In this document: one piece after another, positions 121 through 19,826 of the stretch | How positions within the stretch are numbered: the first letter of the stretch is position 1 | Layout: each line of letters starts with the position of its first letter | Assembly: GCA_019057735.1 (NCBI GenBank) | Contig: JAHLWV010000013.1 | Location: 1 to 19,839 of the forward strand | Source: Promethearchaeota archaeon | Lineage (GTDB): Archaea > Asgardarchaeota > Lokiarchaeia > Sigynarchaeales > SOKP01 | Direction: 5' to 3' | Length of the DNA stretch: 19,839 nt | Program-made: the position numbers and the translations under genes | The notes under the pieces: model-generated | Told to the model about the DNA's origin: nothing | The model's input: only the letters and a program-made list of their open reading frames with translations | Database searches by the model: none

Positions 121-1803
121 CTAAATTTTCTTAGAATCTTTAAATAAGTCAAAGATATCCATTTCATAATCTATTGTATCTTCAGGTAATAGATTTGGCT
201 CCTTAATTAATTTAGCAAGATAATATGTTTTTGATCCTCTCTCTAAATATTGTAGTACCGTGTAAGCTCCTTCTAAATGACTTCCACAACATAGACTCCC
301 ATGGTTGGCAAGGATTACTGCGCTTCTATCTTCTAAACTTGCTTTTACATTATCAGCTAATTCTTCACTTCCAGCCTCACCGTAATCCGAACATAAAACC
401 TCTCCGCCTAAGTAGGGCACAAGTTCTTCCATAATTGGAGGTAACGACAAATTGAGAGTACTGAGTATTGTTGAATACATTCCGTGAGAGTGAATAATTG
501 CATTCACGTCTTCTCGATCTTTGTATATTCCTAAGTGCAGGTGTTTTTCTACTGAGGGATTTCTTTCTCCCTCGATTACTTTGCCTTCAAGATCAATAAT
601 TAAGATATCCTTTGGTTCCATTTCTTTGTAGTTAACGTTACTAGGGGTGATCAAAACGAATTCTTTATCACCATTTTTAACTCTCATACTTACATTTCCG
701 GCTGATCCAATAACATGGCCGTCGCTTAATAACTTCTTACAAATTTTTACAATTTCTTCTTTAAATTTATTACTTGGTTTATCTAGTATCTCCTTTTTTT
801 CCTTAAATCCTTCAAATACTTCGGGATTTAATACATGAGAAGGAATCCCATTATTTAACCAAATGTTAATATCTTTAAGGAGCATTTTAGATTGTCTCTT
901 AACTACTTCAGTTGTATTTCCACCAATATGGGGCATCACTATAACATTATCTAATTCTAAAAACTCATTATCTTCATCAATGGGCTCTAAAGGGAATACA
1001 TCTAAAGCAGCTCCTGCGATCTCGTTTTTCTTTAAAGCTCCGTATAAATAATCGTAATCAACGAGGCTTCCTTTGGCCAGATTTATTAAATACCCTGAGC
1101 TTTTCATCATTTTTATCCGTTCTTCGTTAATAAGATTATCATTTTCATCAGTTGCCACAGCATGTAATGTAATAAAATCTGATTCTTTCATTAAAAAGTC
1201 AAGGTCTGTCTTGTCGCCGTACTCTTTAATTTTTTCTTCGGAAACATACGGATCATATATTAGAAATTTAACACCAAATGGTTTTAATCGTTCGGCTACT
1301 CTTTGCCCAATTTGACCAAAACCAACTATGCCTATTGTTTTACTTTCTAATTCGCTTCCCATGAATTTATTATAGCAATTAATCCAATCTTCAAACTCAA
1401 TAATTTCAAAATCATCTGAATGTAGGAATCGGTCTAGTTTAGTAAGATTTCTAGCCATAGATATTATTAAACCAACAGTTAATTCAGCAACTGCAACGAC
1501 ATTCCTGTTTGGAGTGTAAATAATAGGTATATTTTTTTTGGTAGCAGCGTCTAAATTGATATTAAAAGGATCCCCGCGACAAGACGCAATCAGCTTCAAA
1601 TTTGTCTGTTCAAAAAGTTCTGCTTTTTTTAAATCATCCGCTACAGTTATGAAGACATCGTAATTCCTTAATTTTTCAGTCATCTCTTTAATGTCAAAAT
1701 ATATATTTCCAGTATCCCTCCAACTTTCATAGGTTACTTCCATTTTCTTTCGCAATTCTTCTAAAACTTCATCAGTTATACTTGCTGTTATAAAAGCTCT
1801 CAT
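121..1803 (-). CDS. Fusion protein: D-isomer-specific 2-hydroxyacid dehydrogenase + class II aldolase/adducin domain
   Basis: This 560-residue protein joins two enzymes. Residues 1-330 are a D-2-hydroxyacid dehydrogenase of the SerA/PdxB superfamily. They carry the dinucleotide-binding GxGxxG (G161, G163, G166), acidic D184 after beta-2 as in NAD-preferring members, E273 and the catalytic His292 in a PHIGG motif. Residues 345-545 are a class II (zinc) aldolase of the fuculose-phosphate aldolase type, with E419 in a PSVE motif and zinc ligands H438, H440 and H501, all intact. One oddity is K244 in a NLAKG motif, where the family normally has the substrate-binding arginine (NxxRG). The ATG at 1803 begins the first beta-strand (MRAFIT). 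The gene is last in a minus-strand run after an FGGY kinase and an SCP2-like gene, so I infer oxidation plus cleavage of a sugar acid or its phosphate. The substrate is unknown. Both domain calls are firm; the pathway is not. Confidence 0.9.
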   Translation of the reverse strand: MRAFITASITDEVLEELRKKMEVTYESWRDTGNIYFDIKEMTEKLRNYDVFITVADDLKKAELFEQTNLKLIASCRGDPFNINLDAATKKNIPIIYTPNRNVVAVAELTVGLIISMARNLTKLDRFLHSDDFEIIEFEDWINCYNKFMGSELESKTIGIVGFGQIGQRVAERLKPFGVKFLIYDPYVSEEKIKEYGDKTDLDFLMKESDFITLHAVATDENDNLINEERIKMMKSSGYLINLAKGSLVDYDYLYGALKKNEIAGAALDVFPLEPIDEDNEFLELDNVIVMPHIGGNTTEVVKRQSKMLLKDINIWLNNGIPSHVLNPEVFEGFKEKKEILDKPSNKFKEEIVKICKKLLSDGHVIGSAGNVSMRVKNGDKEFVLITPSNVNYKEMEPKDILIIDLEGKVIEGERNPSVEKHLHLGIYKDREDVNAIIHSHGMYSTILSTLNLSLPPIMEELVPYLGGEVLCSDYGEAGSEELADNVKASLEDRSAVILANHGSLCCGSHLEGAYTVLQYLERGSKTYYLAKLIKEPNLLPEDTIDYEMDIFDLFKDSKKI

Positions 1804-1901
1804 AATTTATCGATCCACCTAAAAGATTATCTATTCTTTAAGTATTAGATTATAATCATGCAATTAAATTTAGATTAAATGATTAAAACAATTGAATTTA
1901 G

Positions 1902-2252
1902 CTAAAACATCAAGCTCTTCAGTTTCATTAAATTTCTAATGTTTCCTTCAATGACCTTTATTTTTCCTGAAGAATACGCTTTCACCGCTCCGAGCTCTTT
2001 GTTAAATAAATCCAGCATTGTTTTTTCTGATACAAACTCGATTTTCACGGTAGCAGTTTCGTCGCTAGCGTTATCTTTTACCTCTATTCCTTGATCCTTA
2101 TTAACAAGTATCAAAACTTTGCGGTTTGTGTCTAAAAATGAAATTTGTATCGGTTCATTATAGTTTGCTAATTTTTTTCTCACTTTTTCTGTATTAACAT
2201 AACGATTTTCAATTTCCTTTAAACAAGACTCAAAATTTTCAAAATTTGACAT
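1902..2252 (-). CDS. SCP2-like (sterol-carrier-protein-2 fold) small protein
   Basis: This 116-residue soluble protein has no signal peptide or membrane segment. Residues about 63-114 have the SCP2 pattern: an acidic turn, a strand (TATVKIEF), a helix (SEKTMLDLFNKEL), then SSGKIKVIEGNIRNLMKL, which matches the family's closing 'G-K-l-k-v-x-G-n-x-x-x-l-x-x-l' motif. SCP2 domains bind lipids or other hydrophobic ligands, and stand-alone prokaryotic forms are mostly uncharacterised. The gene sits between the FGGY kinase (102 nt upstream) and the dehydrogenase-aldolase fusion (98 nt downstream) on the same strand. It may therefore be co-transcribed with them, although the gaps also allow its own promoter. 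Any role with those enzymes, such as holding a hydrophobic substrate, is inference. Confidence 0.65.
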   Translation of the reverse strand: MSNFENFESCLKEIENRYVNTEKVRKKLANYNEPIQISFLDTNRKVLILVNKDQGIEVKDNASDETATVKIEFVSEKTMLDLFNKELGAVKAYSSGKIKVIEGNIRNLMKLKSLMF

Positions 2253-2354
2253 TTTTAATCACCCTTAAAATACGAAAACAAGTTTTAATATTAATTTTAA
2301 TGTTAGTAATTTACTATCGTTTATAAAAATATTAAAATTAAACACCAAAAGAAA

Positions 2355-3863
2355 TCATAAACTATCAATTTTTGATTTTAGGTTATTCCACTCAAGATAA
2401 ATTGTTTTAAATTTATCAGAGACACTAGGATCGTTTTTTACTTCTTCAAATGCTAAAAGATTACTAACGATCGATTTGTAATTGGAATAGTACTTCAAAC
2501 CCATTAGAGTATTTATTGCAGCACCAATAAATGCTGAATCTCTAATGCAGGCAACAGAAATTTGATTATCTAATATGTTAGCTAACAACTTGCAAAACTC
2601 ATTAGATTTAGCCATCCCACCTGCAACATAAGTTTTTGTACGAAGGTCAGTTTGATTGCGTAGCACTTGATGATTTTCAAATATACCGAAAGCTATGTTT
2701 TCAAGAACGCTCCGGGCAAAATTTTCAATTTTAGGGACATTCTCAGACACCATAATAGGTGGTGGAAAAATAAAAGCACCTCTCTTAATAGAAGTGGTAT
2801 TCTTTATATTCATCTTTTCAGGACCCAAGTAGGTGTAAGTCGAAAAAGCTCCGGGGGTTGTTCTTTTTAGATAATCCTCTATTAATGAATCTGGATTGTC
2901 AGTAAAGCTTGATAAGAATGCTTCTTTAAACCAATTGTAGGAAGCGCCCGTGTTGCCCGCATTGCTTTCAATTAACCATTTTCCTTTTATCGAATGGCAT
3001 GTGGTCCAGAAATTAGAATTAGGATCAAAAATGGGTTTATTTACAACGAGATGAAGTGGTGATGTAGTACCTAAACTAATGCCTATGTCACCTTCTTCGA
3101 TTACACCCATACCTAATAAAGTTGCTTGCGTATCTCCTCCAGATTTTACAAAAGAAATATTTTTAAGGACTTCATCGAATCTTTTGTTTAAGTTTTCTTT
3201 TAATTCGCCCACAATAGTTCCTGATTCAACAATTTCTGGAAAAAAATCGGGATCAAAATTAAAAGTATCTATTATTTCAGAACTCCAATCCCCTTTTTTA
3301 ATATCCAGTATTTGGGACTCAGCTGCAGAAGATAGATCAGTACAAAAATTTCCAGTAAATTTGTAGACTAACCAATCATCTAATGTCAATACTTTTTTAA
3401 TTTTTGCGTATACTTCTTCCGCTTCTTCTTTAAACCACAATAATCTTGCTAGACAAAATAGTAGAGACGGACTATGTCCCGTTATTTTAAATAGATCCCT
3501 TTCTGAAAATGCATCGTCTATGAGATAGGCTGAATCAATACCGCGAATATCGATATTAGGTCCTCCATACAAGACATTTCCTTTTTCGTCTAGAAAAACG
3601 GAGGCAATTCTTTGAGTACAGCTCGACAAACCTACAATCCTTTTGTTTTTAGATTTAGATAGTACAAAATCTATTCCTCTCATAACCTTTTTCCAAAGGT
3701 CATCCATGTCAAAGCGTTTAGCAAAACCATCTAAATCTTCATTAAATATTTTTAATTCTTGAGTGTTATAGATTTTTATTTTTAATTGGTCGGATACTAA
3801 TCCTACCTTTATTGAATTAGAAGAAATATCTATCGTTAAAATTAAATTTTCATCTTTTTCCAT
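2355..3863 (-). CDS. FGGY-family carbohydrate kinase (xylulokinase-like)
   Basis: This is a two-domain FGGY sugar kinase of 502 residues, a normal length for the family, and it acts in the cytosol. Numbering from the ATG at 3863, the first phosphate-binding strand-loop is LTIDISSNS (D12). The catalytic aspartate lies in GGDTQ (D244). The second phosphate loop is SLGTTS (about 264-268), and an AGG motif (about 414-416) forms the adenine pocket. An in-frame TTG at 3872 would add only three residues, and I prefer the ATG. The sugar-binding motifs do not match glycerol kinase, so a ketose, polyol or sugar-acid substrate is more likely. It starts 26 nt after the AMMECR1 stop and lies upstream of the SCP2-like gene and the dehydrogenase-aldolase fusion. 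It may phosphorylate the substrate that the fusion enzyme then processes; that link is inferred. Confidence 0.85.
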   Translation of the reverse strand: MEKDENLILTIDISSNSIKVGLVSDQLKIKIYNTQELKIFNEDLDGFAKRFDMDDLWKKVMRGIDFVLSKSKNKRIVGLSSCTQRIASVFLDEKGNVLYGGPNIDIRGIDSAYLIDDAFSERDLFKITGHSPSLLFCLARLLWFKEEAEEVYAKIKKVLTLDDWLVYKFTGNFCTDLSSAAESQILDIKKGDWSSEIIDTFNFDPDFFPEIVESGTIVGELKENLNKRFDEVLKNISFVKSGGDTQATLLGMGVIEEGDIGISLGTTSPLHLVVNKPIFDPNSNFWTTCHSIKGKWLIESNAGNTGASYNWFKEAFLSSFTDNPDSLIEDYLKRTTPGAFSTYTYLGPEKMNIKNTTSIKRGAFIFPPPIMVSENVPKIENFARSVLENIAFGIFENHQVLRNQTDLRTKTYVAGGMAKSNEFCKLLANILDNQISVACIRDSAFIGAAINTLMGLKYYSNYKSIVSNLLAFEEVKNDPSVSDKFKTIYLEWNNLKSKIDSL

Positions 3864-6004: not shown

Positions 6005-6637
6005 TCAATAATTTTTGTGATCATATAAGAAGTTAATATATAAGATTTTATTTTCAATTCCTCTTATTTTTGAAAGATCAATACTTTTTAAACTACATTC
6101 TTCATTAACTTTATGTAAAAACCTAAGAAAAGAGATTGATTCTTGAGAAAATGAAAAAATATAGCATTGTGAGCTATTTTCATCAATCTTGTCTCCATAC
6201 ATAACATTTTGTTTAACTTTTTCTTTAGAAATATCAGTAATAAATATCCTATTATCATTAAAGTTGCTGTAAATGTTTTCCAAAATAAATTCTGAGCTAG
6301 GCACCTTTTTGACATATATCCCTGGAGTTGACTTAATCCATTCTCGATCGTTATAATTTTCATTGGTTTCGATTTTCATAATAGCTCTCAATAAAAGTAA
6401 AGCTTGGGATCTCTCATCAGAACCTAAATATCTCACAGATTTACCTTCAATCTTTATAAAAAGGTTATCTGTTTCAAAATACAAGTATAAATTATTATTT
6501 TTTCTTATTGTATAAGATATACAAAAAGATTCTCTTATAATAGCGCAGAGCGTATATACATCGAGGGGAGTTTTTCCTTTATCAATGTCGCTTTTGGTAT
6601 ATTGAGTAACGCAATCCAAAAATATTAAGAAATCCAA
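6005..6637 (-). CDS. Divergent TrmY-like (DUF358) SPOUT tRNA methyltransferase homologue
   Basis: This 210-residue protein resembles archaeal TrmY, the SPOUT methyltransferase that makes N1-methylpseudouridine at tRNA position 54. The matching segments are the N-terminal strand DFLIFLD, PLDVYTLCAIIRESFCISYTIR (24-45), VRYLGSDERSQALLLLRAI (68-86; TrmY has an R-Y-L-x-P-D-E-R-S motif), and STPGIYV (103-109). The C-terminal half is weak. Where TrmY has a glycine-aspartate SAM-pocket loop, this protein has YIFSFSQES (159-167), so it may have lost or altered activity. Translation starts at a TTG (6635-6637), which places the first strand correctly; there is no nearby ATG and no clear Shine-Dalgarno. 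It lies 24 nt after SRP54 and 17 nt before the dihydroorotase gene. The fold is likely; activity is uncertain. Confidence 0.6.
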   Translation of the reverse strand: MDFLIFLDCVTQYTKSDIDKGKTPLDVYTLCAIIRESFCISYTIRKNNNLYLYFETDNLFIKIEGKSVRYLGSDERSQALLLLRAIMKIETNENYNDREWIKSTPGIYVKKVPSSEFILENIYSNFNDNRIFITDISKEKVKQNVMYGDKIDENSSQCYIFSFSQESISFLRFLHKVNEECSLKSIDLSKIRGIENKILYINFLYDHKNY

Positions 6638-15525: not shown

Positions 15526-16122
15526 TTACCTCTCCAATTTTCCCATTATTCTTAATATTACATAATATCCGTTTTTCCAAAAGTAAATCATGAATAGAGA
15601 AACAGCCAGCAATGCAAATAATGAAATCCCTGTGAATAAAATCCAATTACCAGCTGAAAATGAGGCTAATAATGCAGAAAAAGGTGAACTTTGGGTAGGA
15701 CCAAGCAAAATTTCTTGAATTATAGCGATTACAAGGCCTATAATAATTGCCATTATGCTTATTAACAAGCCCCCAGCTGCGATTTTAACATCTATGCGAT
15801 TTTTATACCTTTCTTCAATTTCTCTTACTTTGAAAACGAAATGTAACACCCATTTTCTTCCTTTTCTGAATAATCCGAAGAAAAATATTAAGAGAAAAAA
15901 CAATCCTGCTAAAATTCCAGCGATTAAAGCTATTTGGTATCCTAAAGTTAATCCTAAGAAAGATTCTAATTTCCCAGTTGGCATGATATAATCAAATATT
16001 GACCAGATACCTCCAGTAATGCAAATTAAGCAAGAAATAACGATAAAAACATAAAATAATTCTCCTACTACTTTTTGTTTTGAATTATAAATTTGGTCTG
16101 AACTTGAGTATGATTCTTCCAT
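15526..16122 (-). CDS. Four-helix integral membrane protein of unknown function
   Basis: I do not recognise a family. From the ATG at 16122 the protein has 198 residues. It shows four hydrophobic stretches at about 19-42, 55-85, 114-140 and 157-184. A basic amphipathic segment lies between helices two and three (RKGRKWVLHFVFKVREIEERYKNR region), and the C-terminal tail is short and basic. The N-terminus is acidic and hydrophilic, without a cleavable signal peptide. By the positive-inside rule the loop between helices two and three faces the cytosol. A GTG at 16131 is also in frame, but a GGA four bases before the ATG favours the ATG. It lies about 110 nt upstream of herA on the same strand. 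Confidence 0.7.
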   Translation of the reverse strand: MEESYSSSDQIYNSKQKVVGELFYVFIVISCLICITGGIWSIFDYIMPTGKLESFLGLTLGYQIALIAGILAGLFFLLIFFFGLFRKGRKWVLHFVFKVREIEERYKNRIDVKIAAGGLLISIMAIIIGLVIAIIQEILLGPTQSSPFSALLASFSAGNWILFTGISLFALLAVSLFMIYFWKNGYYVILRIMGKLER

Positions 16123-16225
16123 AATTTCCACGATACTATTTTAGTTAACAAATTTATAACAATCTAAGTATATAAAATTGTTTATTATTGCTTAAAATTA
16201 AAGAACAGAACTCGAAATGAAATGT

Positions 16226-17764
16226 TTAATTAATTTTTTTATTTTGGAGCGTTTTGACGAATGTTTTAAAGAAATTTTTTTCCTCTAAATGTGAATATAA
16301 ATTGTTTGACATTTTGTAAACCTCATTATAAATCATCTGATGATCTATGTTAGGAGTCCATTTCTTATCCACCTTACAAATATTCTCAGCAGCTTTAACA
16401 ACATCAGGAAACAATCCAGCACCTGCTGCTGCTAAAATTGCTGCCCCTAAAGACGTTGCTTCCTCAATCACATTTCTTACACAAATTATACCTATAACAT
16501 CAGAGTAGATTTGATTCCAAAAATCCGAGCGAGATCCGCCTCCAGTTAACTTCAATTCTTTTGGAGCGATTCCTAACTCTCTAAATATCTCAACATTCTT
16601 TCTAATTTCAAATGCTACTCCTTCCATAATAGAACGTATAATATCTCTTCTTTTATGACCTAATGATAAACCATATATTAAACCTCGAGCATACGGGTTC
16701 CAATGAGGTGCTCCAGCACCAACCAAATGGGGGATGGCTAATAGTGAGTTAGCTCCAACGGGCGACTTTTCAGCTTCTTCAGTTAAAATAACATAAGGAT
16801 CTTGGTTTTGTTTTTTAGCCTGTTCACACTCTTCTGCTCCAAGTTCGTCCCTAAACCACCTTAAAAAGGCTCCGGTAGTAAAGATACTAGCTTCTTGAAC
16901 CCATGCGCCAGGAATTGCATGGCAACTACATAAAACACGCCTTTTCGGATCAAGTTTAGGTTTTTCTAGATAAGCTAGTATAAAACTTCCCGTTCCAGTC
17001 GTGACTTTTATGTTCCCGGGGGAGACGACTCCTACACCCAGTGCCGCTGATTGCTGATCACCTGCTCCGGTTATTACTAAAGTTTTTTTGTCAAATAATG
17101 TATCCTCAGTTAAAATTTCGCCAATATCGATTCCACTCTCTACGGGTTCTGGCATTTTATCCAAGTCAATTTCGAGTTCGGAGGCGATCTCATCTGAATA
17201 CTTAATTTTATTAATATCGAAAAGCATAGTTCTTGATGCGTTAGAGTGGTCTGTATAAAATTGTCCCGTTAATTTATAAAGAATGTAATCTGACACAAGT
17301 AAGAATTTATGAGTTTTTTGATATATCTCTGGTTTTTCATCTTTGAACCATAAAATTTTTGTCGCTGAAAAATATGGATCAATTATTAACCCCGTAGTGT
17401 TATATATTTTATCTTCTCCTATTTTTTTCTTAATGAAGTCAACCTGATTAGTAGTTCTTCGATCTTGCCACACTAACGCATTATGTAAAGTGTTTCCTTC
17501 TCGATCTACAGGAACAATTGTTTCGCGTTGATTAGCAATAGAAAGACTTACAATTTCTGATTTATCGATTCCGCTTTTTTTAATAGCTATTTCGATAGTA
17601 TTCTTTAGTGATTCCCACCAAGAATTAGCGTCTTGCTCCACATAAGAAGGAACGGGATAAAAACTCTCCCACTCCTGATACGCGCTTGATATTATAGTAC
17701 CAGTCATATCAAAAATAAAAGTTCTACATCCTGTAGTTCCTAGGTCAAGTGCGGCAACAAACAT
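16226..17764 (-). CDS. FGGY-family carbohydrate kinase with glycerol-kinase signature residues
   Basis: This 512-residue FGGY kinase phosphorylates a polyol or sugar in the cytosol. The phosphate loop is LDLGTTGCR (6-14), the catalytic site GAGDQQ (D236) and the adenine loop LTGGGSRS (405-412). Residues that contact glycerol in E. coli GlpK have counterparts here: R80-E81 (NQRET), Y131 (DPYFSATK), D236-Q237 and F261 (GTGSF). WQDRRT and SNASRTMLFDI are also glycerol-kinase-like. The C-terminal half (IPHLVGAGAPHWNPYARG and onward) reads more like xylulokinase-type members, so glycerol is likely but not certain. No glycerol-3-phosphate dehydrogenase or transporter is adjacent. The ATG at 17764 begins the usual MFVAALDLGTT. 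About 100 nt separate it from each neighbour. Confidence 0.85.
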   Translation of the reverse strand: MFVAALDLGTTGCRTFIFDMTGTIISSAYQEWESFYPVPSYVEQDANSWWESLKNTIEIAIKKSGIDKSEIVSLSIANQRETIVPVDREGNTLHNALVWQDRRTTNQVDFIKKKIGEDKIYNTTGLIIDPYFSATKILWFKDEKPEIYQKTHKFLLVSDYILYKLTGQFYTDHSNASRTMLFDINKIKYSDEIASELEIDLDKMPEPVESGIDIGEILTEDTLFDKKTLVITGAGDQQSAALGVGVVSPGNIKVTTGTGSFILAYLEKPKLDPKRRVLCSCHAIPGAWVQEASIFTTGAFLRWFRDELGAEECEQAKKQNQDPYVILTEEAEKSPVGANSLLAIPHLVGAGAPHWNPYARGLIYGLSLGHKRRDIIRSIMEGVAFEIRKNVEIFRELGIAPKELKLTGGGSRSDFWNQIYSDVIGIICVRNVIEEATSLGAAILAAAGAGLFPDVVKAAENICKVDKKWTPNIDHQMIYNEVYKMSNNLYSHLEEKNFFKTFVKTLQNKKIN

Positions 17765-17863: not shown

Positions 17864-18541
17864 TTATTTCACTTTTTTAAACCCACATTGTTGACACACT
17901 AATCCAACTTTAGGACTATATACTTGTGTAAGGGGTCCATTACAAATTGGACACTTCACATCAAATGTTGGAAACCATTTACCTTTAATATTGGGCATAT
18001 ACTTTAAAGTATTAACGAATTTCAATCTATCTAGATCCTGCTTATTAATTTGTAGCAACTGTTGTTCTTCAGCAATAGATTTTCCTTTTGGAGCTAAAAC
18101 TATTAAGAATTTCATTTTTTTCGGATTATTTAGCAATGATAATGTTCGCAAAATAGCTCCTTCTTTATATTCATCAAATAACTTAGCTAGTTCTGGAGGG
18201 GCTAAAGCTACTAATACAGCTTGCGAATCCCTCGATTCCACTTCGACTTTTTGAATGAGGAATTGGAACATTCTCTTTTCATGGTCCATCCCCCAAATAA
18301 AAATCCATGGTTTTATATCGTAATCCTCGTTATCAGGCCCAATTATTCTTTTAATACTTTCCACCCAGGAATAATGGTTAAATTTATACAGGTTAGAGCG
18401 TAAATCATCAAAAAATCCTGGTTCAACTACAGGAAAAGTTTTCATTACACTTTTCAGAGATAAAAGTTTAACTTCAGCTAAAACTTCTGAGTTAAGATTA
18501 TCCCATGGTGTATATGTGAAAACTGAAAAGAAATTGTTCAT
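17864..18541 (-). CDS. Unknown protein with C-terminal zinc ribbon
   Basis: I do not recognise a family. The 225-residue protein has a mixed alpha/beta body, with FIWGMDHEKRMFQFLIQKVE (84-103), a hydrophobic strand AVLVALAPPELAKLF (108-122) and KFLIVLAPKGKS (164-175). A C-terminal zinc ribbon follows: C197-P-x-C200 and C216-x2-C219 with a 15-residue loop, typical of archaeal nucleic-acid or ribosome-associated proteins. There are no membrane segments. It is divergent from the nucleotidyltransferase-like gene across 133 nt and lies about 100 nt upstream of the FGGY kinase. The metal-binding tail is clear; what the body does is not. Confidence 0.65.
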   Translation of the reverse strand: MNNFFSVFTYTPWDNLNSEVLAEVKLLSLKSVMKTFPVVEPGFFDDLRSNLYKFNHYSWVESIKRIIGPDNEDYDIKPWIFIWGMDHEKRMFQFLIQKVEVESRDSQAVLVALAPPELAKLFDEYKEGAILRTLSLLNNPKKMKFLIVLAPKGKSIAEEQQLLQINKQDLDRLKFVNTLKYMPNIKGKWFPTFDVKCPICNGPLTQVYSPKVGLVCQQCGFKKVK

Positions 18542-18674: not shown

Positions 18675-19826
18675 ATGAACGGAATTTGGGATAGTAAATC
18701 GGACGCAATAAAGAAAGGTGATAACCTTAGGGACGTCTCACATATTATCGAAAAAACTAGAAAAGACGAGGAAGGCTTTATTCATTACGTTTTTAGCAAA
18801 GCTAATTTTTTTAATCCTTGGTATACAATTCCCGAAGATGATTTCAAACTTTTTGAAAACTTTCTAGAAGGCGGTTCTAGAGCATACCCTTCTGATGGTA
18901 GCATCCCCTGTGATATAGTAGCTAAAGAAGCAAGAAAAGTTTTGAAAAAAATAGAATTATGTTCCCAAGACCCTAATCATCATTATTGTGAAGCAGCTCG
19001 CGAAGTGTTAAAAAAAGGGAAATTCTCGTCAGTAAGAGGGACGCTAAAACTCTATTTAGGTAAATACACGACAAGAGATTGGAGAAGAAAGAGATTTACG
19101 GACGATATAGATTTCTGGATGTTTCACACGAACCTATTAGATTCATCTTTAAAAGAGTGCAGTTTTTTAAAAAATAAAGAAACAGGAGAATGGGAAAAAA
19201 CTGTTGAATGGAAGAAATTTGAAACTAAAGAAAATAGGCGCGAAACTTTGTTTGCTGCAAACAATCTTAATCAGTTACTTGATTTTGGAGCTGGTAGTTA
19301 TCTCGAAGGTTCAAGTTTAAAAGAAATTTTTGATAAAAAAATTAAAAGAGGACACGATGTCGATTTAAGCGATATTATTAATGTCGCAATGATGAACAAT
19401 GGCGTCGATGGTATTCACAAAGATGAATGGTCAGATGCATGGAATTCTTTTGAACAGGCAGCCAATACACGAAATACTAGAACCACATCTAATCTAATAA
19501 GTATTTGTCGTTATTCTTTTGCAATTGCAGACCACCTTGAAAAAGTTAGCAAAGCTATTAAAAAACATAAAGATATTATTTTAGATAAATCTAAATATTC
19601 AGACGAGAAGATAAAATCTCTCTGTAGAATCTCTACTCATTGGGAAAAATTCTACGATGCTAACGGAGTAGATGAAACTAGAAAAATGATTCGTGATTTT
19701 TACCATGAACAAGCAGAAGAGAAACCATTTCACGCACAAAACCTAAGAATACTTGCGAAAAATATCCTAAAATTACTTAATTCCAAATACGAATATCTTA
19801 AGGTTACATTCGAAATTGAGCAATAA
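18675..19826 (+). CDS. Putative nucleotidyltransferase-fold protein (AbiEii-like signature)
   Basis: This is a 383-residue soluble protein without a confident family. Residues 116-150 resemble the nucleotidyltransferase core of AbiEii-type proteins: VRGTLKLYLGKYTTRDWRRK followed by RFTDDIDFWMF, with D144-x-D146 as the likely metal-binding pair. In AbiEii proteins this reads as a GG-T-x-L stretch and then R-x-S/T-x-D-I-D. A later KKIKRGHDVDLSDIIN (221-236) fits the family's 'K...R...RDxxDl' segment. The C-terminal 250-383 is helical and charged. The ATG at 18675 has no Shine-Dalgarno; it could be leaderless. No AbiEi-like antitoxin gene is visible, but the window ends 13 nt after the stop. The fold call is inferred from short motifs. 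Confidence 0.55.
   Translation: MNGIWDSKSDAIKKGDNLRDVSHIIEKTRKDEEGFIHYVFSKANFFNPWYTIPEDDFKLFENFLEGGSRAYPSDGSIPCDIVAKEARKVLKKIELCSQDPNHHYCEAAREVLKKGKFSSVRGTLKLYLGKYTTRDWRRKRFTDDIDFWMFHTNLLDSSLKECSFLKNKETGEWEKTVEWKKFETKENRRETLFAANNLNQLLDFGAGSYLEGSSLKEIFDKKIKRGHDVDLSDIINVAMMNNGVDGIHKDEWSDAWNSFEQAANTRNTRTTSNLISICRYSFAIADHLEKVSKAIKKHKDIILDKSKYSDEKIKSLCRISTHWEKFYDANGVDETRKMIRDFYHEQAEEKPFHAQNLRILAKNILKLLNSKYEYLKVTFEIEQ

Follow-up and report, generated by a model that had tools for sequence, protein, structure and literature searches.

An FGGY kinase, an SCP2 protein and a dehydrogenase–aldolase fusion form a conserved Asgard gene cassette that may serve an undescribed catabolic pathway

In L-fucose and L-rhamnose catabolism an FGGY kinase feeds a class II aldolase and a third enzyme handles the aldehyde, and the OtnC acid-sugar pathway brings together a dehydrogenase, a kinase and an enzyme of the class II aldolase fold, with OtnK and LtnD belonging to other families than the FGGY kinases and the D-2-hydroxyacid dehydrogenases. 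In Bacillus thuringiensis, DrdK, DrdI and DrdA convert 5-deoxyribose to dihydroxyacetone phosphate (DHAP) and acetaldehyde (PMC6079011). Here we describe a cassette that recalls these systems in a stretch of 19,839 nucleotides from a Promethearchaeota archaeon (contig JAHLWV010000013.1; “the window” denotes this whole stretch). On the minus strand, an FGGY kinase, a protein with a sterol-carrier-like (SCP2) domain and a fusion of a D-2-hydroxyacid dehydrogenase with a class II aldolase are transcribed in this order (Table 1). The initial annotation had listed these genes with this order and these coordinates, and our open reading frame (ORF) and Pfam scan found all of it correct. No known prokaryotes are closer kin to eukaryotes than the Asgard archaea, which are mostly uncultured and whose diet is therefore read from genomes. 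We put at roughly one half (0.5) the probability that the cassette is catabolic, with kinase, NAD-dependent dehydrogenase and retro-aldolase turning a substrate into a triose phosphate and an aldehyde. This reading is backed by the co-conservation of the genes, the low background of FGGY genes and the joint presence of the genes among the 37 genomes of the nearest family.

We searched 227 Asgard genomes, of which 109 gave a match at E ≤ 1e-58, and with two further genomes (G057 and G004) took 112 neighbourhoods (113 loci with the window), calling genes by a simple longest-ORF script. A remnant (L067) and a locus with the aldolase alone (L142) were dropped before dehydrogenases were counted, leaving 111 loci, window included, of which 54 are fused and 57 unfused. 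Three loci retained in the counts (L055, L141 and L143) lack Arg76 of the dehydrogenase and branch apart, which suggests that they are probably not orthologues. The contigs of these metagenome-assembled genomes are short and many loci lie at contig ends; we call a locus well covered if both flanks extend for at least 3.5 kb (39 fused and 38 unfused loci).

Within a range of 6 kb upstream to 8 kb downstream, a kinase gene accompanies 38/39 fused and 36/38 unfused loci that are well covered. At these loci SCP2 is a conserved member of the cassette, present near 39/39 fused and 28/38 unfused loci, and a gene for an aldehyde:ferredoxin oxidoreductase (AOR) lies near 26/38 unfused and 5/39 fused loci; a separate aldolase gene was recognised in 29 of the 38 unfused loci. 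The genome-wide background, 331 FGGY_N matches in about 211 Mb summed over 58 relatives, predicts about 0.02 FGGY genes per 14-kb stretch. Against 38 of 39 observed, this rules out neighbourhood by chance: the association of kinase, SCP2 gene and fusion is beyond chance. A control that compared 101 cluster kinases with three further FGGY genes across 1.49 Mb of loci was discarded for the genome-wide count, because the loci had been excised around the cluster and the control was not independent. The sole kinase-less well-covered fused locus (L074, genome G153) has its kinase orthologue, 54% identical, elsewhere on that contig, at a distance of about 38 kb. The finding by which the initial annotation would have been refuted, many genomes with the fusion and no kinase beside it, is thus not what the loci show, and in many unfused relatives the kinase gene sits between the dehydrogenase and aldolase genes; both support its treatment of these genes as one functional unit. 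The sugar-acid pathway that it suggested, discussed below, finds less support.

An assembly artefact is likewise ruled out, since a match with both domains was seen in 30 of 58 relatives (two of them with one internal stop codon) and the 120 listed of 1,855 protein-database homologues all have the Pfam domains of both halves. Fifteen named loci encoding the fusion (L013–L027, one cut at residue 72) all belong to Lokiarchaeota/Lokiarchaeia, with 66–96% identity to the window fusion, which marks the window as lokiarchaeal DNA. Within the nearest family (G001–G037), 18 of the 37 genomes carry the window-type fusion (identity at least 56%; that of G030 is split by a stop), and all 18 have a matching kinase (E below 1e-150) and SCP2 protein (E below 1e-39). 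Three genomes (G009, G019 and G024) have the window-type kinase without the fusion, the kinase lying within 0.7 kb of the contig end on the fusion side; three (G005, G012 and G025) have the other fused type; one (G033) has the kinase and SCP2 of that other type on a contig that ends about 360 bases beyond SCP2. Fusion and matching kinase are both absent from the remaining 12, one of which, G004 (L067), has lost the kinase, SCP2 and most of the fusion together and keeps a 103-residue aldolase remnant flanked by the same neighbours.

In the unfused relatives the genes are separate, and at 23 of 57 loci SCP2, dehydrogenase, kinase, aldolase and AOR follow one of two orders: SCP2–dehydrogenase–kinase–aldolase–AOR on one strand (17 loci) or AOR–SCP2–aldolase–kinase–dehydrogenase (six loci). 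Dehydrogenase, kinase and aldolase alone occur at seven of the 57. SCP2 adjoins the cassette as the next gene in 9 of the 17 loci with the first order (L094, L122, L124, L129, L130, L131, L134, L137 and L138). In L122, AOR is a complete protein with AFOR_N and AFOR_C and has Pyrococcus AOR (1aor, 409 bits) as its closest match; its assignment as a glyceraldehyde-3-phosphate oxidoreductase (GAPOR) was rejected (31 of 1,300 bits). Genes for the large and small subunits of a [NiFe]-hydrogenase lie just upstream in L122. In L131, an NAD-binding/DHODB-like protein is encoded two genes before SCP2 and a Fer4_20 flavoprotein after AOR, a pair that we read as Nfn-like. In L052, which has no SCP2 nearby, the aldolase gene is followed by one for a fatty-acyl-CoA-ligase-like protein, whose nearest solved relative is FadD5 (232.9 bits). 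Taken together, such neighbours would suit an oxidative, electron-disposing catabolic route.

Several loci hold a variant or an additional aldolase gene. In L099, L114, L123, L139 and L140 the dehydrogenase, kinase and AOR genes are normally spaced and no aldolase was recognised between kinase and AOR; a broken or diverged gene, or a gene-calling error, is a candidate explanation. In many Loki genomes a stand-alone class II aldolase paralogue, about 33–37% identical to the aldolase part of the fusion (L056, 10130–11653, and similar loci), is encoded 3–8 kb downstream from where the fusion starts, and in several loci a xylose-isomerase-like TIM barrel gene follows it. A further family, present in 15 of 113 loci, joins a DHDPS-type aldolase to an APH-type phosphotransferase in one protein, mostly of about 680–700 residues; its gene lies close downstream of the dehydrogenase–aldolase fusion (L032, 5930–7981, also L062, L068 and others).

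In a quick dehydrogenase tree with some long branches flagged, the 54 fused copies form one clade (SH-aLRT 98) together with L093, which is cut by the contig end, and L036, which is split by one stop codon. The aldolase tree (122 rows, some long branches) likewise unites the 54 fused copies and L036 (support 98/91). The single clade in both trees rules out repeated independent fusions and indicates that the fusion arose once and later split again at least once, in L036. The dehydrogenase and aldolase genes of L050 adjoin each other, yet branch outside the fused clade. The window's half of the clade (28 fused copies) has a short SCP2 protein in 27 and a same-strand kinase in 25, with no kinase nearby in three; in the other half (26 copies) SCP2 exceeds 200 residues in 25, and 23 of 25 kinases are encoded on the opposite strand.

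The dehydrogenase part of the window fusion matches 2-Hacid_dh (PF00389, best stretch 5–326) and 2-Hacid_dh_C (PF02826, residues 110–294) above the gathering scores (46.6 bits, cut-off 24.6, and 183.7 bits, cut-off 25.1), and its GxGxxG nucleotide motif is intact (residues 161–166). At the positions that we take to be the Arg-Glu-His catalytic triad of D-2-hydroxyacid dehydrogenases, His292 is kept in all 111 dehydrogenases and Glu273 in 106 (Asp in five), while position 244 is Arg in 80, Lys in 29, the window included, and Ser in two. A family motif, R76-x-x-P79-x-N81, aligns with the G-V-G loop of 1wwk. Its Arg is kept in 106 of 111 dehydrogenases, three of the five exceptions being the probable non-orthologues, and its Arg and Pro are invariant in 18 aligned sequences, Paracoccus and Enterococcus included. 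From its place in the alignment Arg76 would contact the substrate, and a conserved Arg in the substrate loop would fit an anionic one.

Aldolase_II (PF00596) covers residues 349–527 of the fusion at 162.6 bits (cut-off 22.2), and Asn370, the acid/base Glu419 and the metal ligands His438, His440 and His501 are present in 54 of 54 fused aldolases; the intact metal site and the family argue for a cleavage step. The best single-sequence PDB match of this part is DrdA (6btd, 155.5 bits). Escherichia coli FucA, Streptococcus pneumoniae FucA, B. thuringiensis DrdA and three bacterial sequences nevertheless form a clade of their own (100/99), with the fused copies elsewhere. The C-terminal KFxTYG of two bacterial aldolases, which has a catalytic role in FucA, is missing from 16 aligned Asgard sequences.

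The window kinase matches FGGY_N and FGGY_C (139.4 and 47.6 bits), and Asp247 is present in all 101 cluster kinases. A profile of the kinase family (18 rows, two of them bacterial) finds the autoinducer-2 (AI-2) kinase LsrK first (5ya0, 359.8 bits), ahead of xylulose kinase (234 bits) and gluconate kinase (212 bits). Among the NCBIfam models listed (for the window, the best 25 of 51 models for the fusion and all 12 for the kinase; for L122, all 21 for the dehydrogenase, all 12 for the kinase and the best 25 of 31 for the aldolase), no cut-off was reached. The window fusion scored highest among FucA/DrdA-type equivalogs with PRK06833 (184.5 of 264 bits) and reached 112.9 of 250 bits for OtnC (3-oxo-tetronate 4-phosphate decarboxylase) and 86.5 of 434 bits for PdxB (4-phosphoerythronate dehydrogenase); the kinase reached 179.6 of 528 bits for the LsrK equivalog and 126.7 of 648.55 bits for FGGY gluconokinase.

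The SCP2 protein of the window passes the gathering score of PF02036 (35.5 vs 21.3 bits), and its family profile matches the solved SCP2 proteins 3cnu, 2c0l and 1c44. A simple hydropathy scan found no hydrophobic segment in this short protein. In each of the 26 long SCP2 proteins it showed two to four such segments ahead of the SCP2 domain, and a likely membrane anchor is therefore predicted for them. The presence of SCP2 is a hint that the substrate or product may be lipophilic.

Related gene trios occur in bacteria. On four of four Rhodobacterales plasmids (two Paracoccus, Pseudosulfitobacter and Sagittula; L144, L150, L151 and L152) dehydrogenase, aldolase and FGGY kinase genes are adjacent, in a cluster that also holds coenzyme A (CoA)-transferases, a thiamine diphosphate enzyme and a molybdenum oxidoreductase, with genes for an ATP-binding cassette (ABC) importer opposite and an IclR regulator where the stretch extends that far. 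Unlike the Asgard cassette, this cluster has no annotated SCP2 or AOR but the importer and CoA chemistry instead; its dehydrogenases read S-R-G-G-P-V-N (4/4) where the window has C-R-G-D-P-F-N, and the two aldolases placed in the tree, from Paracoccus denitrificans and Sagittula, group with E. coli FucA, unlike the Asgard aldolases. In Enterococcus raffinosus (L147), whose FGGY kinase is the top plasmid match of the window kinase, the order is transporter-like gene, dehydrogenase, FGGY kinase, aldolase, iron-alcohol-dehydrogenase-like gene (202.8 of 645 bits), MtnK (369.8 bits, cut-off 275) and MtnA (334 bits, cut-off 271). A protein search with the Enterococcus kinase returned mainly unnamed relatives, the named ones coming from Enterococcus, Lachnospiraceae, Oscillospiraceae/Ruminococcaceae and other Firmicutes; two relatives bear the name AI-2 kinase. 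Plasmid matches in Halapricum, Listeria, Leclercia and Rubrobacter showed no dehydrogenase–kinase–aldolase trio among their annotated neighbours.

The cassette shares with the drd cluster a kinase step, a class II aldolase in which the acid/base Glu and the His residues of the metal site agree, and a predicted aldehyde product, and in Enterococcus the related trio adjoins MtnK and MtnA. It differs in that a dehydrogenase replaces the isomerase, SCP2 and AOR are added, the aldolase falls into another clade and no MtnK/MtnA-type gene is present (no relative of either at E 1e-5 among 1,508 proteins of the 113 Asgard loci). From L-fucose and L-rhamnose catabolism it is set apart by a 2-hydroxyacid-family dehydrogenase and by missed FucK, RhaB and FucA model cut-offs; no isomerase gene was noticed among the cassette neighbours, a point on which no systematic search was made. 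The OtnC pathway differs by the low OtnC score, the FGGY kinase and the D-2-hydroxyacid type of the Asgard dehydrogenase. We presume that YoaD and YoaC of Bacillus subtilis belong to the same subfamilies as the cassette enzymes. Methionine starvation is reported to induce yoaB and yoaC, which are named together with S-box genes (PMC5519356), and YoaD/YoaC have been guessed to make glycerate and phosphoglycerate (PMC2885750). The accessible part of the FGGY family paper (PMC3245297) mentions neither YoaC nor 2-hydroxyacid, and that of PMC6302742 none of yoaB, yoaC and yoaD. In the open-licence literature we found no description of a trio of FGGY kinase, hydroxyacid dehydrogenase and aldolase and no paper linking SCP2 with Asgard aldehyde ferredoxin oxidoreductase or sterol carrier proteins with Asgard archaea, and the one paper retrieved for a lokiarchaeal fuculose aldolase concerns halophiles; as far as this literature goes, the cassette looks like an undescribed pathway.

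In the catabolic route that we propose, the FGGY kinase would phosphorylate a primary hydroxyl of a polyhydroxylated substrate, the dehydrogenase would use NAD(H) to turn a hydroxyl of the phosphorylated intermediate into a carbonyl or the reverse, and the class II aldolase would cleave what results, releasing an aldehyde and a triose phosphate, which is most probably DHAP. Where AOR is clustered, it may oxidise the aldehyde to the acid while reducing ferredoxin, and the hydrogenase or Nfn-like enzymes that some copies have as neighbours could return NADH and ferredoxin to the oxidised state. The alcohol-dehydrogenase-like gene that follows the same trio in Enterococcus would represent a second kind of aldehyde handling and counts in favour of this route. 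In Loki-type genomes the fused dehydrogenase and aldolase steps could hand over an unstable keto intermediate. The weakest step concerns SCP2, which might hold or deliver the lipophilic part of the substrate or of the aldehyde. Acid sugars are the best match to the dehydrogenase family, and deoxypentose-like compounds match LsrK, DrdA and the Enterococcus cluster.

A number of points weigh against this route. Sequence fixes neither substrate nor direction, and D-2-hydroxyacid dehydrogenases normally use 2-hydroxy acids, not polyols. AOR is near just 5 of 39 well-covered fused loci and absent among the called genes of the window; of the 38 well-covered unfused loci, 10 lack a nearby SCP2 gene and 9 a recognised separate aldolase gene. 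In the other 8 of the 17 SCP2-first loci and in two further loci (in all L097, L098, L099, L104, L106, L109, L114, L116, L117 and L132), SCP2 lies 3.5–4.4 kb upstream past opposite-strand genes and so need not be co-transcribed. The aldolases of L107, L111, L113, L115, L118 and L121 sit on a very long branch in the usual gene setting and are perhaps a replacement. Finally, the 29 copies with Lys244 are exactly the window's half of the fused clade plus L036, and 28 of 54 fused copies have Val418 where FucA and DrdA have Ser; with both residues in the window's clade, the activity of its enzymes could differ.

The initial annotation favoured the breakdown of a sugar acid; for one of four to six carbons, the far end would be phosphorylated, a 2-keto acid formed and the aldolase would cleave or decarboxylate it. 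A sugar acid is a possible substrate: the dehydrogenase belongs to the D-2-hydroxyacid family and keeps its Glu, His and Arg or Lys in nearly all copies, and the Rhodobacterales trio comes with an ABC importer and an IclR regulator, as for a soluble imported substrate. As stated, however, the proposal is not supported, given that the scores for OtnC, PdxB and FGGY gluconokinase stay far short of their cut-offs and the kinase family is nearer to LsrK than to gluconate kinase (360 vs 212 bits); it also leaves SCP2 and an AOR that is not of GAPOR type unexplained, and we regard this pathway as doubtful. Less probable still is the disposal of a 5-deoxypentose derived from 5′-deoxyadenosine, methylthioadenosine or an AI-2-like dione, in which kinase and dehydrogenase would yield a 5-deoxyketopentose 1-phosphate and the aldolase would release DHAP and acetaldehyde or its thio analogue. 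The E. raffinosus trio beside MtnK and MtnA speaks for it, as do DrdA as top PDB match of the aldolase part and LsrK as top match of the kinase profile, but neither MtnK nor MtnA has a relative at the Asgard loci, the Asgard aldolases fall outside the DrdA/FucA reference clade and SCP2 would not be needed, so that we consider it unlikely.

Two readings that give SCP2 a lipid to carry are far less probable. Class II aldolases are reversible, and in a biosynthetic direction AOR would reduce an acid to the aldehyde, the aldolase would add DHAP and the product would enter a lipid head group or a signalling compound. The conservation of SCP2 and the hydrophobic segments in 26 of 26 long SCP2 proteins would agree with this, but an ATP-using kinase and hydrogenase or Nfn-like neighbours would fit oxidation better, and many Loki genomes lack the fusion, unlike what is expected for an essential lipid (although these genomes are incomplete); we think it very improbable. 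Equally a long shot is the degradation of an SCP2-delivered lipid with a polyhydroxylated five-carbon tail such as bacteriohopanetetrol. Its side chain is described as arising from addition of the 5′-deoxyadenosyl radical to diploptene, giving ribosylhopane and then bacteriohopanetetrol (PMC12583986). It is in effect a 5-deoxypentitol with the hopane at its methyl end, and the chemistry fits: once the terminal hydroxyl is phosphorylated and the adjacent one oxidised, aldol cleavage would yield DHAP and a C32 hopanal, which AOR would turn into C32 hopanoic acid. Among the hopanoic acids of one rock deposit in whose formation an anaerobic community took part, this one is the most abundant (PMC11884234), and the hopanoid route, if true, would be an anaerobic enzymatic path from hopanoids to a molecular fossil.

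On the catabolic reading, SCP2, an NAD-linked step and, in many copies, ferredoxin-linked aldehyde oxidation would make up an energy-yielding Asgard route. The fusion offers a natural test case for the handing over of an unstable keto intermediate, and the Asgard cassette gives a lead on the dehydrogenase–FGGY–aldolase clusters in bacteria.

Table 1. Features of the window discussed in the text (positions of the whole stretch).
Feature	Position	Strand	Basis
Fused D-2-hydroxyacid dehydrogenase/class II aldolase, 560 residues	121–1803	−	ORF open throughout, Pfam
Dehydrogenase part, residues 1–335 of the fusion	799–1803	−	Pfam and residue alignment
Class II aldolase part, residues about 345–560 of the fusion	121–771	−	Pfam and residue alignment
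SCP2 (sterol-carrier-like) domain protein, 116 residues	1902–2252	−	PF02036
FGGY carbohydrate kinase	2355–3863 from in-frame ATG (to 3872 from longer TTG start)	−	FGGY_N and FGGY_C
TrmY-like protein	6005–6637	−	Family model
Second FGGY kinase, glycerol/xylulose-kinase-like, outside the cassette	16226–17764	−	XylB and GlpK scores
ORF	15526–16131		
ORF	17864–18541		
ORF	18675–19826		

The window stops 120 bases beyond the stop codon of the fusion, so downstream genes were read in relatives, the nearest of the compared genomes being G001, which has 29% of the window's sampled words in common. Upstream of the kinase, on the same strand, lie genes for AMMECR1, a dihydroorotase-like protein, a TrmY-like protein and what we take to be SRP54, an order repeated in many near relatives. 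The TrmY-like protein is covered by its family model at residues 22–118 alone (34 bits) and has diverged strongly between relatives (37–90% identity). The second FGGY kinase scored 369.1 of 380.25 bits for XylB and 343.7 of 590.35 bits for GlpK. The last three ORFs of Table 1 are without a Pfam match at E 0.001.

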